From NCBI GenBank assembly GCA_013290035.1, contig JABCYT010000015.1, positions 1-15,556 on the forward strand: a DNA stretch of 15,556 nucleotides, in the 5' to 3' direction. The position numbers and the translations under genes were made by a program. Positions 9,315-11,642 of the stretch are shown piece after piece. This stretch comes from Alphaproteobacteria bacterium (GTDB lineage Bacteria > Pseudomonadota > Alphaproteobacteria > Reyranellales > Reyranellaceae). Under the pieces are notes generated by a model. It ran no database searches and was not told where the DNA came from. It saw nothing but the letters and a program-made list of their open reading frames with translations. Position 1 is the first letter of the stretch; the number at the start of each line of letters is the position of its first letter.

Positions 9315-9350
9315 TCATGTTCCTCTCCCCCACTCATGTTCCTCTCCCCC
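9315..9350 (+). repeat. Short tandem direct repeat at the edge of the palindromic element
   Basis: The 17 bases TCATGTTCCTCTCCCCC occur at 9315-9331 and again at 9334-9350, an offset of 19. The second copy is the outer part of the left arm of the large inverted repeat, so the first looks like a partial duplication of the element's end. Confidence 0.85.
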
Positions 9351-9444
9351 TTAGGGGAGAGGCTAGGTGAGGGGGTGCAGCACGAAGATCGCCTCCTGCA
9401 TCACCCCCTCACCCAACCTCTCCCCTAAGGGGGAGAGGAGCATG
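9334..9444. repeat. Long imperfect inverted repeat (REP/MITE-like intergenic palindrome), possible terminator
   Basis: The left arm (about 9335-9380) and right arm (about 9396-9444) are nearly complementary around a centre of about 15 bases, with only small mismatches and an extra ATG-like triplet on one side. Each arm also contains its own hairpin: CCTCTCCCC (9341-9349) with GGGGAGAGG (9354-9362), and CCTCTCCCC (9417-9425) with GGGGAGAGG (9430-9438). Similar CCTCTCCCC...GGTGAGGGGG palindromes are, from memory, very common between genes of many proteobacteria. It lies after the dehydrogenase stop and may end that transcript or stabilise its 3' end, though no run of T follows. It separates the dehydrogenase from the sigma-factor operon. 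Confidence 0.85.
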
Positions 9445-9463
9445 ATTCGACGTGTTCGATGGA

Positions 9464-9490
9464 TGTCGATTCTGGCTAGTCACGAACGTC
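9464..9490 (+). promoter_or_regulatory. ECF42-type promoter of the first DGPF gene
   Basis: TGTCGA (9464-9469) and CGTC (9487-9490) are separated by exactly 17 bases. These match the -35 TGTCGA and -10 CG(A/T)C reported, as I recall, for ECF42 sigma factors in Streptomyces. The same pair with the same spacing precedes the second DGPF gene, and an ECF42-type sigma factor is encoded downstream. Transcription would start roughly 35-40 bases before the ATG. Confidence 0.75.
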
Positions 9491-9498
9491 TATGAGGT

Positions 9499-9514
9499 GA
9501 CGGACAAGGCCGTC
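9499..9514 (+). promoter_or_regulatory. Leader hairpin upstream of the first DGPF gene
   Basis: GACGG (9499-9503) can pair with CCGTC (9510-9514) across six bases. It lies between the predicted promoter and the Shine-Dalgarno AGGAG (9523-9527). The same position in the second DGPF leader holds a longer hairpin built on the same bases. The stem is short, so support rests on that parallel. Confidence 0.35.
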
Positions 9515-9533
9515 GTCAACGCAGGAGATCGAC

Positions 9534-9917
9534 ATGACCCAATATATGCTGCTGCTGCACCAGGTCCCCAACTACAACATGGACCTGCCGCGCGAGAAGA
9601 TGCTGGAAATGACCAAGCGCTACATGGCCTGGGCCGACGGCCTGCGCCACAAGGGCAAGCTGGCGGGCGGCGAGAAGCTCGCGGCCGGCGGGGTGCGCCA
9701 CATCAAGGTCAAGGACGGCAGGCCGGTCATCAGCGATGGGCCCTATGCCGAGGCCAAGGACGTGATCGGCGGCTACTTCGTGATCGAGGTCAAGGACGCC
9801 GCCGAAGCCGAGGCGATCGCCAAGGACTGTCCGCACCTCGGCCTCGCCGCCACCAACTGGGTGGAGATCCGGCCGATCGACTCGATGCAGGAGCAGCGCA
9901 AGGCGGCTGCCGGCTGA
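9534..9917 (+). CDS. DGPF/YCII-domain protein (first of two)
   Basis: A small cytosolic protein of 127 aa made of one YCII/DGPF ferredoxin-like domain. It opens with MTQYMLLLHQ and carries DGPYAEAKDVIGGYFVIE (68-85), the segment that names the family (here DGPY). It ends with CPHLG...NWVEIRPID. Biochemical function is unknown; family members are regularly encoded next to ECF42 sigma factors and are reported to be their targets. AGGAG (9523-9527) lies six bases before the ATG. It shares most of its sequence with the next gene, and both have the same upstream promoter motif and leader layout, which points to tandem duplication. Confidence 0.92.
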   Translation: MTQYMLLLHQVPNYNMDLPREKMLEMTKRYMAWADGLRHKGKLAGGEKLAAGGVRHIKVKDGRPVISDGPYAEAKDVIGGYFVIEVKDAAEAEAIAKDCPHLGLAATNWVEIRPIDSMQEQRKAAAG

Positions 9918-9946
9918 GCATCCGGCCGCAGCCGACCTCGACGAAT

Positions 9947-9973
9947 TGTCGATTCGAGAGGGACCGCAGCGTC
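9947..9973 (+). promoter_or_regulatory. ECF42-type promoter of the second DGPF gene and sigma factor
   Basis: TGTCGA (9947-9952), then 17 bases, then CGTC (9970-9973): identical motif and spacing to the promoter of the first DGPF gene; both continue as TGTCGATTC. The sigma gene overlaps the second DGPF gene, so this promoter would also drive the sigma factor itself, giving positive autoregulation. Confidence 0.75.
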
Positions 9974-9979
9974 GATCAG

Positions 9980-10005
9980 GTGACGGCGAGACGAATGGCC
10001 GTCAC
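9980..10005 (+). promoter_or_regulatory. Leader hairpin upstream of the second DGPF gene
   Basis: GTGACGGC (9980-9987) and GCCGTCAC (9998-10005) are perfect complements around a 10-base loop. The stem ends five bases before the Shine-Dalgarno AGGAGG (10010-10015). It occupies the same place as the weaker hairpin in the first DGPF leader. It could affect mRNA stability or ribosome access; no known riboswitch is recognised. Confidence 0.5.
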
Positions 10006-10020
10006 AACCAGGAGGTCGAT

Positions 10021-10413
10021 ATGGCTCAATACATGCTGCTGCTGCACCAACTTCCCGATACCAACGCGGCGTTGCCGCCCGCGGTCATGACGGACGTGGT
10101 GCGTCGTTACTATGCCTGGGCGGAGACGATGCGCCAGAAGGGCAAGCTGGTCGGCGGCGAGAAGCTCGCCGTCGGCCGGGTGCGCCACATCCGCATGCGC
10201 GACGGCACGCCGCTCTCGAGCGACGGCCCCTATGCCGAGGCCAAGGACGTAATCGGCGGCTATTTCGTGATCGAGGCCAAGGATGACGCCGAGGCCGACA
10301 CGCTGGCGCTCGACTGCCCGCATCTGTGGAACGCCACCAACTGGGTCGAACTCCGGCCGATCGACCTGATGACGGCCGCGCAAGCCCCGGTTCAGGCGAA
10401 GGCCGCCCGCTGA
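10021..10413 (+). CDS. DGPF/YCII-domain protein (second of two)
   Basis: 130 aa, one YCII/DGPF domain, closely similar to the preceding gene product: MAQYMLLLHQ at the start, LVGGEKLAVGRVRHI, the identical run DGPYAEAKDVIGGYFVIE (68-85), and NWVELRPID near the end. The start at 10021 is chosen because AGGAGG is five bases upstream and the N-terminus then aligns residue for residue with its neighbour; the in-frame start at 9946 would cover the predicted promoter. The C-terminal tail (about residues 118-130) is Ala-rich and differs from the first copy. The stop TGA overlaps the likely start codon of the sigma factor. Function is unknown, but it is probably part of the sigma factor's own regulon. 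Confidence 0.92.
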   Translation: MAQYMLLLHQLPDTNAALPPAVMTDVVRRYYAWAETMRQKGKLVGGEKLAVGRVRHIRMRDGTPLSSDGPYAEAKDVIGGYFVIEAKDDAEADTLALDCPHLWNATNWVELRPIDLMTAAQAPVQAKAAR

Positions 10414-11642
10414 GCGACCAGGTCCACACCCTCGTCGCCTCGCTGGCGCGCGACTCGGCCCACCGCCTGGTCGCCGCGCTGGCGAGGCGATTGGGTGCGG
10501 GCCGCATCGCGACGGCCGAGGACGCCGTCCAGCACGCGCTCCTGCAGGCGCTGTCGCTGTGGCCCTTCAAGGGCGTGCCGGCCAGGCCCGAAGCCTGGCT
10601 GGCGATCGTCGCCCGCAACCGCGCGCTGGACTTGTTGCGCAACGAATCGCGCGGCCTGGCGCTCGTCGAGGATCTCATCCCCTTGTCACCCCCGACCGTT
10701 GAAAGCGAAGGTCGCTTCGACCGCGAGCTGAACGACGACGAACTGGCGCTGCTGTTCGCGGTTTGCCATCCCGCGCTGTCGCCCGAGCTGCGCGTGACCT
10801 TCGCGCTCAAGACCGTGTGCGGCCTCACCGTGCCGCAGATCGCCGCCGGCATGCTGGGCGAGCCCACGGCCATCGCCCAACGCCTGGTGCGGGCCCGCCG
10901 CCAGCTCGAGGCCGCCGGCGTCGCCATCGAGGCGCCGCCGCCCGAGGTGCTGCCGGAGCGTGCCGAGACGGTGCGTACCGCGCTCTATCTCATGTTCAAC
11001 GAGGGCTATTCGGCCTCCTCGGGCGAGGCGCTGGTCCAGCCCGAGTTCTGCGTCGAGGCGGTGCGGCTGGCGCGGGCGCTGGCGCAGCATCCCATGACGA
11101 TGAGCCCGGCAAGCGACGCCTTGGCGGCGCTGCTGTCACTGACCGCCGCGCGCCTGCCGACCCGGGTCGGTCCCGACGGCGTGGCGCAACTGCTGGAAGA
11201 CCAGCCGCGCGACCAATGGGACCGCGGTCTGATCGCGCTGGGCCTTGCCCATCTCCAACGTTCGGCCGAGGGCGCCGAGCTCACGGTCTGGCATCTGCGC
11301 GCCGAGATCGCCGCGTTGCACGCGACCGCGCCCAGCGCCGCCGAGACCGACTGGCCGAGCATCGCGGCGATCTATGACCACCTGCTCGACCTCGATCGCT
11401 CACCGGTGGTCGAGCTTGCGCGCGCCGTCGCGATCGGGCGCGCCCAGGGTGCGGCGGCCGGGCTGGCGGCGCTGCCGTCGATCGAAGGCAGTCCCTACAG
11501 CGAAGCTGCTCGCGGCGTGTTCCTGTCGGAGCTCGGTCGCGTCGAGGAAGCCCGCCAGCATTTCGAGAAAGCGCAGCGGCTCGCGCGCACCGAGCCGGAG
11601 CGCCGCCTGATGGCGCGGCGTCTCATGAGCCAGCGCGAATAA
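10410..11642 (+). CDS. ECF42-type RNA polymerase sigma factor with C-terminal extension
   Basis: An alternative sigma factor of about 410 aa, twice the size of a simple ECF sigma. Region 2 is at about 37-78 (AEDAVQHALLQALSLWP, then ARPEAWLAIVARNRALDLLRN), and region 4 at about 125-168 (LRVTFALKTVCGLTVPQIAAGML...ARRQLE). It continues with RAETVRTALYLMFNEGYSASSGE (184-206) and a long helical, TPR-like tail (DRGLIALGLAHL, SPVVELARAVAIG, ARQHFEKAQRLA). This is the layout of group ECF42, which lacks a classical anti-sigma factor and whose C-terminal part is thought to control activity. The start is uncertain: the best candidate is a CTG at 10410, overlapping the upstream TGA as CTGA, with GAAGG seven bases before. 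The only in-frame conventional start upstream, GTG at 10326, lies deep inside the DGPF gene. Confidence 0.9.
   Translation: MSDQVHTLVASLARDSAHRLVAALARRLGAGRIATAEDAVQHALLQALSLWPFKGVPARPEAWLAIVARNRALDLLRNESRGLALVEDLIPLSPPTVESEGRFDRELNDDELALLFAVCHPALSPELRVTFALKTVCGLTVPQIAAGMLGEPTAIAQRLVRARRQLEAAGVAIEAPPPEVLPERAETVRTALYLMFNEGYSASSGEALVQPEFCVEAVRLARALAQHPMTMSPASDALAALLSLTAARLPTRVGPDGVAQLLEDQPRDQWDRGLIALGLAHLQRSAEGAELTVWHLRAEIAALHATAPSAAETDWPSIAAIYDHLLDLDRSPVVELARAVAIGRAQGAAAGLAALPSIEGSPYSEAARGVFLSELGRVEEARQHFEKAQRLARTEPERRLMARRLMSQRE

Follow-up and report, generated by a model that had tools for sequence, protein, structure and literature searches.

The closest described counterparts of the locus reported here belong to the ECF42 group of sigma factors. 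In the accessible parts of the sources, the members of this group in Streptomyces venezuelae (Sven_0747, Sven_4377, and Sven_7131) and Pseudomonas putida (ECF-10) likewise have a YCII gene adjoining the sigma gene. The group is further marked by some 200 additional C-terminal residues with TPR and, as far as the available portions of PMC8999054 and PMC6180224 describe it, has no identifiable anti-sigma gene nearby. The YCII neighbour of ECF42 is regarded as conserved in a review, which in its available part suggests for it a role in regulation (PMC8999054).

The promoter motif had already been predicted for group ECF42, and a 2018 paper describes TGTCGG-N17-CGTC upstream of SMc01151, a YCII gene of Sinorhizobium meliloti (PMC6180224, available part, as for the following statements on this organism). 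The RpoE10 operon SMc01151-SMc01150 has the same gene order as the present locus, YCII and then the ECF42 gene, and the same N17-CGTC, but differs in its TGTCGG element and its one YCII gene, as compared to TGTCGA and two YCII genes here. The RpoE10 targets SMc01149 and SMb20475 carry TGTCGG-N17-CGTC with mapped starts (PMC6180224; spacers counted here), and the target operon, which encodes hydrophobic-ligand and glyoxalase-like proteins, resembles by gene kind an SRPBCC-VOC operon of the genome studied here. The ECF41 factors likewise have a C-terminal extension in place of an anti-sigma factor, a -10 CGTC, and a -35 starting with TGTC (RpoE9 site, accessible part of PMC6180224). They differ in their CMD target and SnoaL-like extension, whereas the sigma factor described here has DUF6596 and YCII as its presumed target.

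With respect to the ECF42 group, the locus differs in having two YCII genes with their own promoters, a probable CTG start of the sigma gene, and a conserved stem-loop in the leader. No description of the leader stem-loop or of the CTG start was found in the ECF42 literature searched, which includes the available parts of PMC8103513 and PMC11119718 and has subscription papers largely outside it.

The window, i.e., the whole stretch of 15,556 nucleotides that was analysed, is read here, with a probability of roughly 0.88, as carrying an ECF42 sigma-factor module whose sigma factor reads the promoters P1 and P2. Comparison with related sequences shows the promoter, its spacing, the gene set, and the domain make-up. 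The features are the following.

9334..9445, no strand assigned: long imperfect palindrome separating the upstream gene from P1, its 52-nt arms being 88% complementary
9464..9490, + strand: P1, ECF42-type promoter (-35 TGTCGA 9464-9469, 17-bp spacer, -10 CGTC 9487-9490)
9496..9517, + strand: P1 leader stem-loop (arms GGTGACGG 9496-9503 and CCGTCGTC 9510-9517)
9523..9527, + strand: Shine-Dalgarno-like AGGAG of YCII1, from the sequence
9534..9917, + strand: YCII1, YCII/DGPF-type protein of 127 aa (PF03795, E 5.6e-15)
9947..9973, + strand: P2, ECF42-type promoter (-35 TGTCGA 9947-9952, 17-bp spacer, -10 CGTC 9970-9973)
9979..10006, + strand: P2 leader stem-loop (arms GGTGACGG 9979-9986 and CCGTCACA 9999-10006)
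10010..10015, + strand: Shine-Dalgarno-like AGGAGG of YCII2, from the sequence
10021..10413, + strand: YCII2, 130 aa (PF03795, E 2.4e-11)
10410..11642, + strand: ECF42-type sigma factor, 410 aa from the probable CTG start (sigma2, sigma4, DUF6596, TPR-like C-terminus)

The palindrome at 9334-9445 is outside the promoter proper, and one related 22-mer occurs elsewhere in the genome. The 43 Rfam matches are all below the gathering score and all in the palindrome region (9320-9449), none of them falling on the leaders.

The relatives of the sigma factor point to a Reyranella-like alphaproteobacterium as the host; the preliminary reading of an ECF42-type promoter pair in an alphaproteobacterium is right. 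The top-scoring relatives are metagenome proteins; a lower-ranked one, with 84% identity, is named Reyranella, and the nearest sigma locus in named genomes (best 80 of at least 590 relatives) is a Reyranella MAG, at 76%. The assembly consists of 822 contigs and 4.45 Mb and is 74% complete; it contains a single DUF6596 match, and its only YCII matches are the two of the window.

The sigma gene follows the YCII genes, and its assignment to the ECF42 type in the preliminary description is borne out by the domains. Sigma70_r2 is matched with E 7.5e-12 and Sigma70_r4_2 with E 6e-5 and 23.1 bits, below the cut-off of 25.7; the family profile of the sigma factor matches solved ECF sigma factors over positions 12-169. 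About 240 residues follow sigma4 as a C-terminal extension, in which DUF6596 is recognized (E 7e-29), and residues 290-410 of the predicted structure align with TPR chains. Sigma2 together with sigma4, the DUF6596 extension, the YCII/DGPF neighbours (two, directly upstream), and the TGTCGA/CGWC promoter make up the ECF42 pattern. The pattern of ECF41 is not seen, as Pfam gives no SnoaL family in the sigma factor but DUF6596 instead, and the partner is YCII, not CMD. Among the nearest genes scanned, no anti-sigma gene is in sight, as had been observed earlier, the flanking genes being those of a 2-hydroxyacid dehydrogenase and an MscS channel. A separate anti-sigma factor is probably absent from the control, and the activity of the sigma factor would be set by its own C-terminal DUF6596/TPR extension, perhaps by way of the YCII proteins, according to a hypothesis in the available part of PMC8999054.

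Both TGTCGA-N17-CGTC sites reported in the preliminary description are present, at 9464-9490 and 9947-9973, with a 17-base spacer, and each precedes a DGPF/YCII gene, the -10 ending 43 and 47 nt before the two ATGs. The resemblance of the two leaders amounts to 83% identity over 48 nt around SD/ATG and to 70% over 40 nt from the -35 to GGTGACGG. On both strands of the window, TGTCGA-N(10 to 25)-CGTC occurs only as P1 and P2, both with N17. If spacers of N15-19 are allowed, the window has 2 matches versus 0.27 expected, and 2 are reached in 7/200 shuffles, so that the window alone is moderate evidence. A search of the whole genome finds TGTCGR-N17-CGTC at 20 places versus 8 for the motif backwards; this count is an undercount because the assembly is 74% complete, and the open-frame test on the 20 places does not discriminate between them, since chance frames cover P1 and P2 too.

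Such counts are what could be cited for the view that the motif is merely frequent in GC-rich DNA and that its second copy is a fresh duplication. This view is hardly credible in the face of the position-specific conservation described below and of the history of the two genes. On the tree, YCII1 lies in a clade of 17 (with 16 others, support 98/98), and YCII2 lies outside it; YCII1 and YCII2 are thus not sisters, and a recent tandem duplication as the origin of the two promoters is rejected. Because, in addition, the spacers of P1 and P2 are identical at only 7/17 bases while the -35 and -10 boxes are identical, both promoters have been kept through divergence. The reality of the motif is settled by their position and by the comparison across relatives and, as judged from sequence, the P1/P2 motif is an ECF42 promoter. 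Locus L123, in a second genome, likewise has a pair of YCII genes that are individually preceded by a promoter; its extra copy is very divergent, and for this reason the two cases look independent.

For the comparison across relatives, DUF6596 genes of the same family and phylum provided 95 loci, to which the window was added; the set has 94 YCII open frames, 7 of which were dropped because the upstream sequence was shorter than 120 nt. TGTCGN-N17-CG[AT]C is found within 300 nt upstream of 72 of the 87 scored YCII genes and is absent from 15; the count within 150 nt is likewise 72/87. Spacers other than 17 are rare, four in total for lengths of 14-20 (300 nt) and 0 to 3 occurrences for each length of 10-25 (150 nt). 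As for the controls, the reversed motif gives 0 at N17, resampled sequence a mean of 0.17 and a maximum of 2, and other tiles of the same loci 23/4376. The motif is kept in close relatives, being found at 29/30 genus-level YCII genes (the two of the window included), at 27/32 other YCII genes of the family, and at 16/25 from other Pseudomonadota. Because the loci were selected through their sigma gene, the closeness of sigma gene and motif is given by construction.

In the genus, the consensus extends to TGTCGATTC...CGAACGTC, from which P2 deviates with its -10 flank GCAGCGTC. TGTCGATTC-N14-CGTC has 46 matches in 38/61 family genomes, versus 0 for the backwards control, and in the genome of the window it matches P1 and P2 only. 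Thirty-two of the 46 matches were assigned to YCII genes, 2 to carboxymuconolactone decarboxylase (CMD) genes, and 12 to neither, with sequence retrieved for 9 of these 12. The two CMD cases are L146 (G021:C40) and L147 (G041:C83), where the extended motif lies 37-38 nt upstream of genes named from sequence; no ECF42 sigma match was found in these two loci. The extended motif is not exclusive to YCII genes.

Across phyla, named genomes were scanned with a 20-sequence profile, and the best 80 of at least 590 confirmed relatives were considered, 79 after removal of Reyranella. A YCII gene is present in 72/79 loci of this best-80 set; in 39 of these 72, the N17 motif lies no farther than 200 nt from the called start, and in 33 it is absent over this distance. 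The YCII loci with the motif, among these best 80 of at least 590, span at least 11 named phyla plus one unassigned record; within 200 nt the motif is found at 0/3 Bacteroidota and 0/1 Armatimonadota loci of the same set. Anywhere on the sigma strand, TGTCGA-N17-CGWC occurs in 55 of the 79 loci, as compared to 5, 4, 3, and 8 for N15, N16, N18, and N19, 2 for the reversed motif, and 3 on the opposite strand. In Acidobacteriota, L211 and L240 have YCII promoters with a 16-base spacer, with four TGTCGA-N16-CGAC matches. The Streptomyces locus L221 carries TGTCGA-N17-CGTC before YCII; the motif given for Streptomyces ECF42 by Liu et al. in 2018 is reportedly -35 TGTCGA and -10 CGWC. Sigma factor, promoter, and target are indeed found together in many phyla, as had been proposed for this DNA, but the proposal does not hold as a new claim, because ECF42 promoters, including the S. 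meliloti YCII site, have been published (PMC6180224).

The last base of the -35 element goes together with one residue of the sigma factor. In the alignment with E. coli sigma E, sigma-4 residue A156 falls on an arginine, which we take to be R171 and which presumably contacts DNA. Sigma factors with E or Q at this position (26 loci) have a -35 ending in G in 26/26, and those with A or S (87 loci) have a -35 ending in A in 81, T in 5, and G in 1. In all, the pairing of E/Q with a final G and of A/S with a final A or T fits 112/113 scored loci, the exception being L263. Outside the count are L145, which lacks the residue, and 64 loci that have no N17 promoter; L186, whose contig has the same length, appears to repeat L110. 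The named-genome set is biased because, of its two seed patterns, one accepted no residue but A or E at this position. The residue changes once on the tree, and the link between base and residue is therefore one independent event; a general sigma-promoter code is not established from this single event. The sigma factor of the window is A-type, and the adjoining P1 and P2 have TGTCGA.

A second kind of promoter is present in the same genome. At L133 (G000:C62:5524-5550), TGTCGG-N17-CGTC precedes an AHSA1/SRPBCC gene followed by a glyoxalase-type gene, an operon singled out among the 20 genomic places by its downstream gene. TGTCGG-N17 is found upstream in 17/20 close SRPBCC orthologues (at least 74% identity, the genome of the window included); in two of the remaining three no start was located, and distant orthologues have the element in 0/8. 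In the 61 family genomes, the SRPBCC gene and an E-type sigma factor are both present in 17, the sigma factor only in 6, the gene only in 3, and neither in 35 (Fisher 1.4e-7, genomes counted singly and kinship uncorrected); G046, one of the gene-only genomes, carries a further ECF42, L048, which is not among the typed factors. No E-type sigma factor was found in the genome of the window, although the SRPBCC gene is present, and this is perhaps due to the incomplete assembly (74%). Neither the link between -35 base and residue nor a TGTCGG operon with a second subtype was found described in the literature searched, including the available parts of PMC11256431 and PMC11497404.

As the MAG is 74% complete, other sigma factors may be missing from it, and P1 and P2, though real, might be read mainly by one of these, such as a paralogous ECF42 of the E type or a factor resembling ECF41. 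Both A-type and E-type ECF42 are indeed found in 9/61 family genomes, and CMD, before which the extended motif occurs in L146 and L147, is the target of the ECF41 factor RpoE9 in S. meliloti. Nevertheless, this explanation is improbable, since the E/Q-type factors go with TGTCGG in 26/26 and the A/S-type with TGTCGA in 81/87, the local pair being A-type with TGTCGA, and since the motif stands at 29/30 genus-level YCII genes adjoining the orthologous sigma gene, in loci that were selected by sigma.

In the preferred reading, the sigma factor encoded at 10410-11642 would direct RNA polymerase to P1 and P2, with a YCII1-YCII2-sigma transcript expected from P1 and a YCII2-sigma transcript from P2. 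If the genes are cotranscribed, P1 as well as P2, and not only the latter, would read into the sigma gene and might close a positive feedback. The operon could instead have a housekeeping start and an ECF42 site that is weak or silent, without positive feedback. The case of S. meliloti points this way: the YCII-sigma operon of RpoE10 itself, SMc01151, showed no rise when RpoE10 was overexpressed, and its mapped start overlaps the motif (PMC6180224, available part). The retention of the site before YCII in many genomes, and in at least 11 named phyla among the best 80 of at least 590 relatives, is not easily reconciled with a silent site, and the housekeeping start is considered rather unlikely, though to be taken seriously.

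Between the -10 and the Shine-Dalgarno sequence, the leaders of the genus have the form GGTGACGG ... CCGTCACC. A perfect inverted repeat of at least 6 is found in 19/29 genus leaders, versus 2.2 by shuffling (maximum 8), and in 20/31 with two more loci, one of which apparently repeats L110. Among leaders of TGTCGG promoters it is found in 1/26, namely L263, whose sigma factor is A-type, and a 6-bp repeat is found in 19/60 other A-type leaders versus 6.25 by shuffling (maximum 16). The alignment A2 contains 25 of 30 leaders and omits L106 and L112, with long inserts, L110, L122, and the first YCII copy of L123, whose leader has no such stem. Standard pairs occupy 95.3% of 192 pair cells, and both sides have changed in 4/8 pairs; these two values are reached in 0/500 shuffles, and the number of further pair types in 31/500. 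When the arms are slid out of register, pairing falls to 20-72%. RNAalifold, with no structure given, arrives at the 6 pairs on the inner side of the stem, of which 3 have double changes; some compensatory changes are common to few close relatives and so are not independent. Fold stability is not unusual for the P1 leader (z 0.14) and is marked for the P2 leader (z -3.1).

A covariance model of the leader (R1) has 29 matches with E below 1e-4 in 28/61 genomes, all placed at this operon by coordinates and two of them in the window, most of these leaders having built the model; the P2 leader, itself among them, is matched with E 1.6e-6. There are 22 weaker matches elsewhere (E 0.001 to 0.05), and nothing convincing appears in 92 other loci beyond the genus (best E 0.11). 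In L106 and L112, the loop is 36 nt long and folds into an additional hairpin.

Each transcript would begin at or near this stem-loop. The published start at S. meliloti SMc01149 lies 9 nt after the -10 (available part of PMC6180224), and for this reason the stem would be trimmed. With a start at this distance here, the three outermost bases of the 5' arm would go untranscribed, yet they are conserved, as would be expected if the palindrome were a DNA operator for some regulator instead of an RNA stem-loop. The arms, however, are as little as 4 nt (L102) and as much as 36 nt (L106 and L112) apart, unlike a single-dimer dyad, and the two longest gaps hold the further hairpin, so that the operator appears possible but doubtful and the RNA stem-loop is preferred.

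The sigma gene probably starts, as judged by comparison of orthologues, at a CTG within CTGA (10410-10413) that overlaps the YCII2 stop. In 15/28 orthologues, that of the window included, there is no usable in-frame ATG, GTG, or TTG from -36 to +6 and a CTG is present; in 13 of the 15, this CTG and the YCII stop overlap as CTGA. The other 13/28 have ATG, GTG, or TTG within this range. The set comprises 28 of 36 sigma loci, the 8 scoring below 480 bits, L119 among them, being excluded. In L114, L115, and L122, an in-frame stop lies 21, 39, and 12 nt upstream, and no ATG, GTG, or TTG occurs from the stop to +60. Codons 10-28 look translated, because 513/893 base differences among 14 CTG loci are at third positions. 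Confident helices are predicted at residues 2-15 and 17-28, and these would be lost if translation began at the following in-frame TTG (10491). A frameshift fusion is disfavoured because YCII and sigma do not keep the same relative frame from one orthologue to another. On the best tree, 6 switches between CTG and canonical start are counted, and 4-6 in bootstraps; strongly supported branches force 2 of them. In the genome of the window, GTG at 10326 is a possible canonical alternative. Translation of the sigma factor would probably proceed from the weak CTG start, coupled to YCII2 termination, and this would keep the factor scarcer than the YCII proteins.

The locus is an ordinary, self-contained regulatory unit of a widespread and known kind, with nearby details, the hairpin and the start codon, that look new. 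A more far-reaching picture, in which the Reyranella ECF42 operon has two extra layers (a compensatory leader stem-loop and a coupled CTGA sigma start) and, given the A/E difference in sigma-4 and the last -35 base linked to it, the genus two insulated ECF42 circuits, is offered tentatively and is unlikely to hold in full. ECF42 sigma factor, promoter, and YCII target occur as one unit in many phyla, seen from sequence alone, and P1 and P2 are concrete sites for the question of how ECF42 sigma factors are switched on without an anti-sigma factor. The linked -35 base and sigma-4 residue provide a testable specificity rule. Finally, the CTG start and the leader stem-loop suggest that the ratio of sigma factor to YCII is itself controlled; if the CTG coupling is true, the sigma factor would be made only by inefficient initiation and would stay below its YCII partner.
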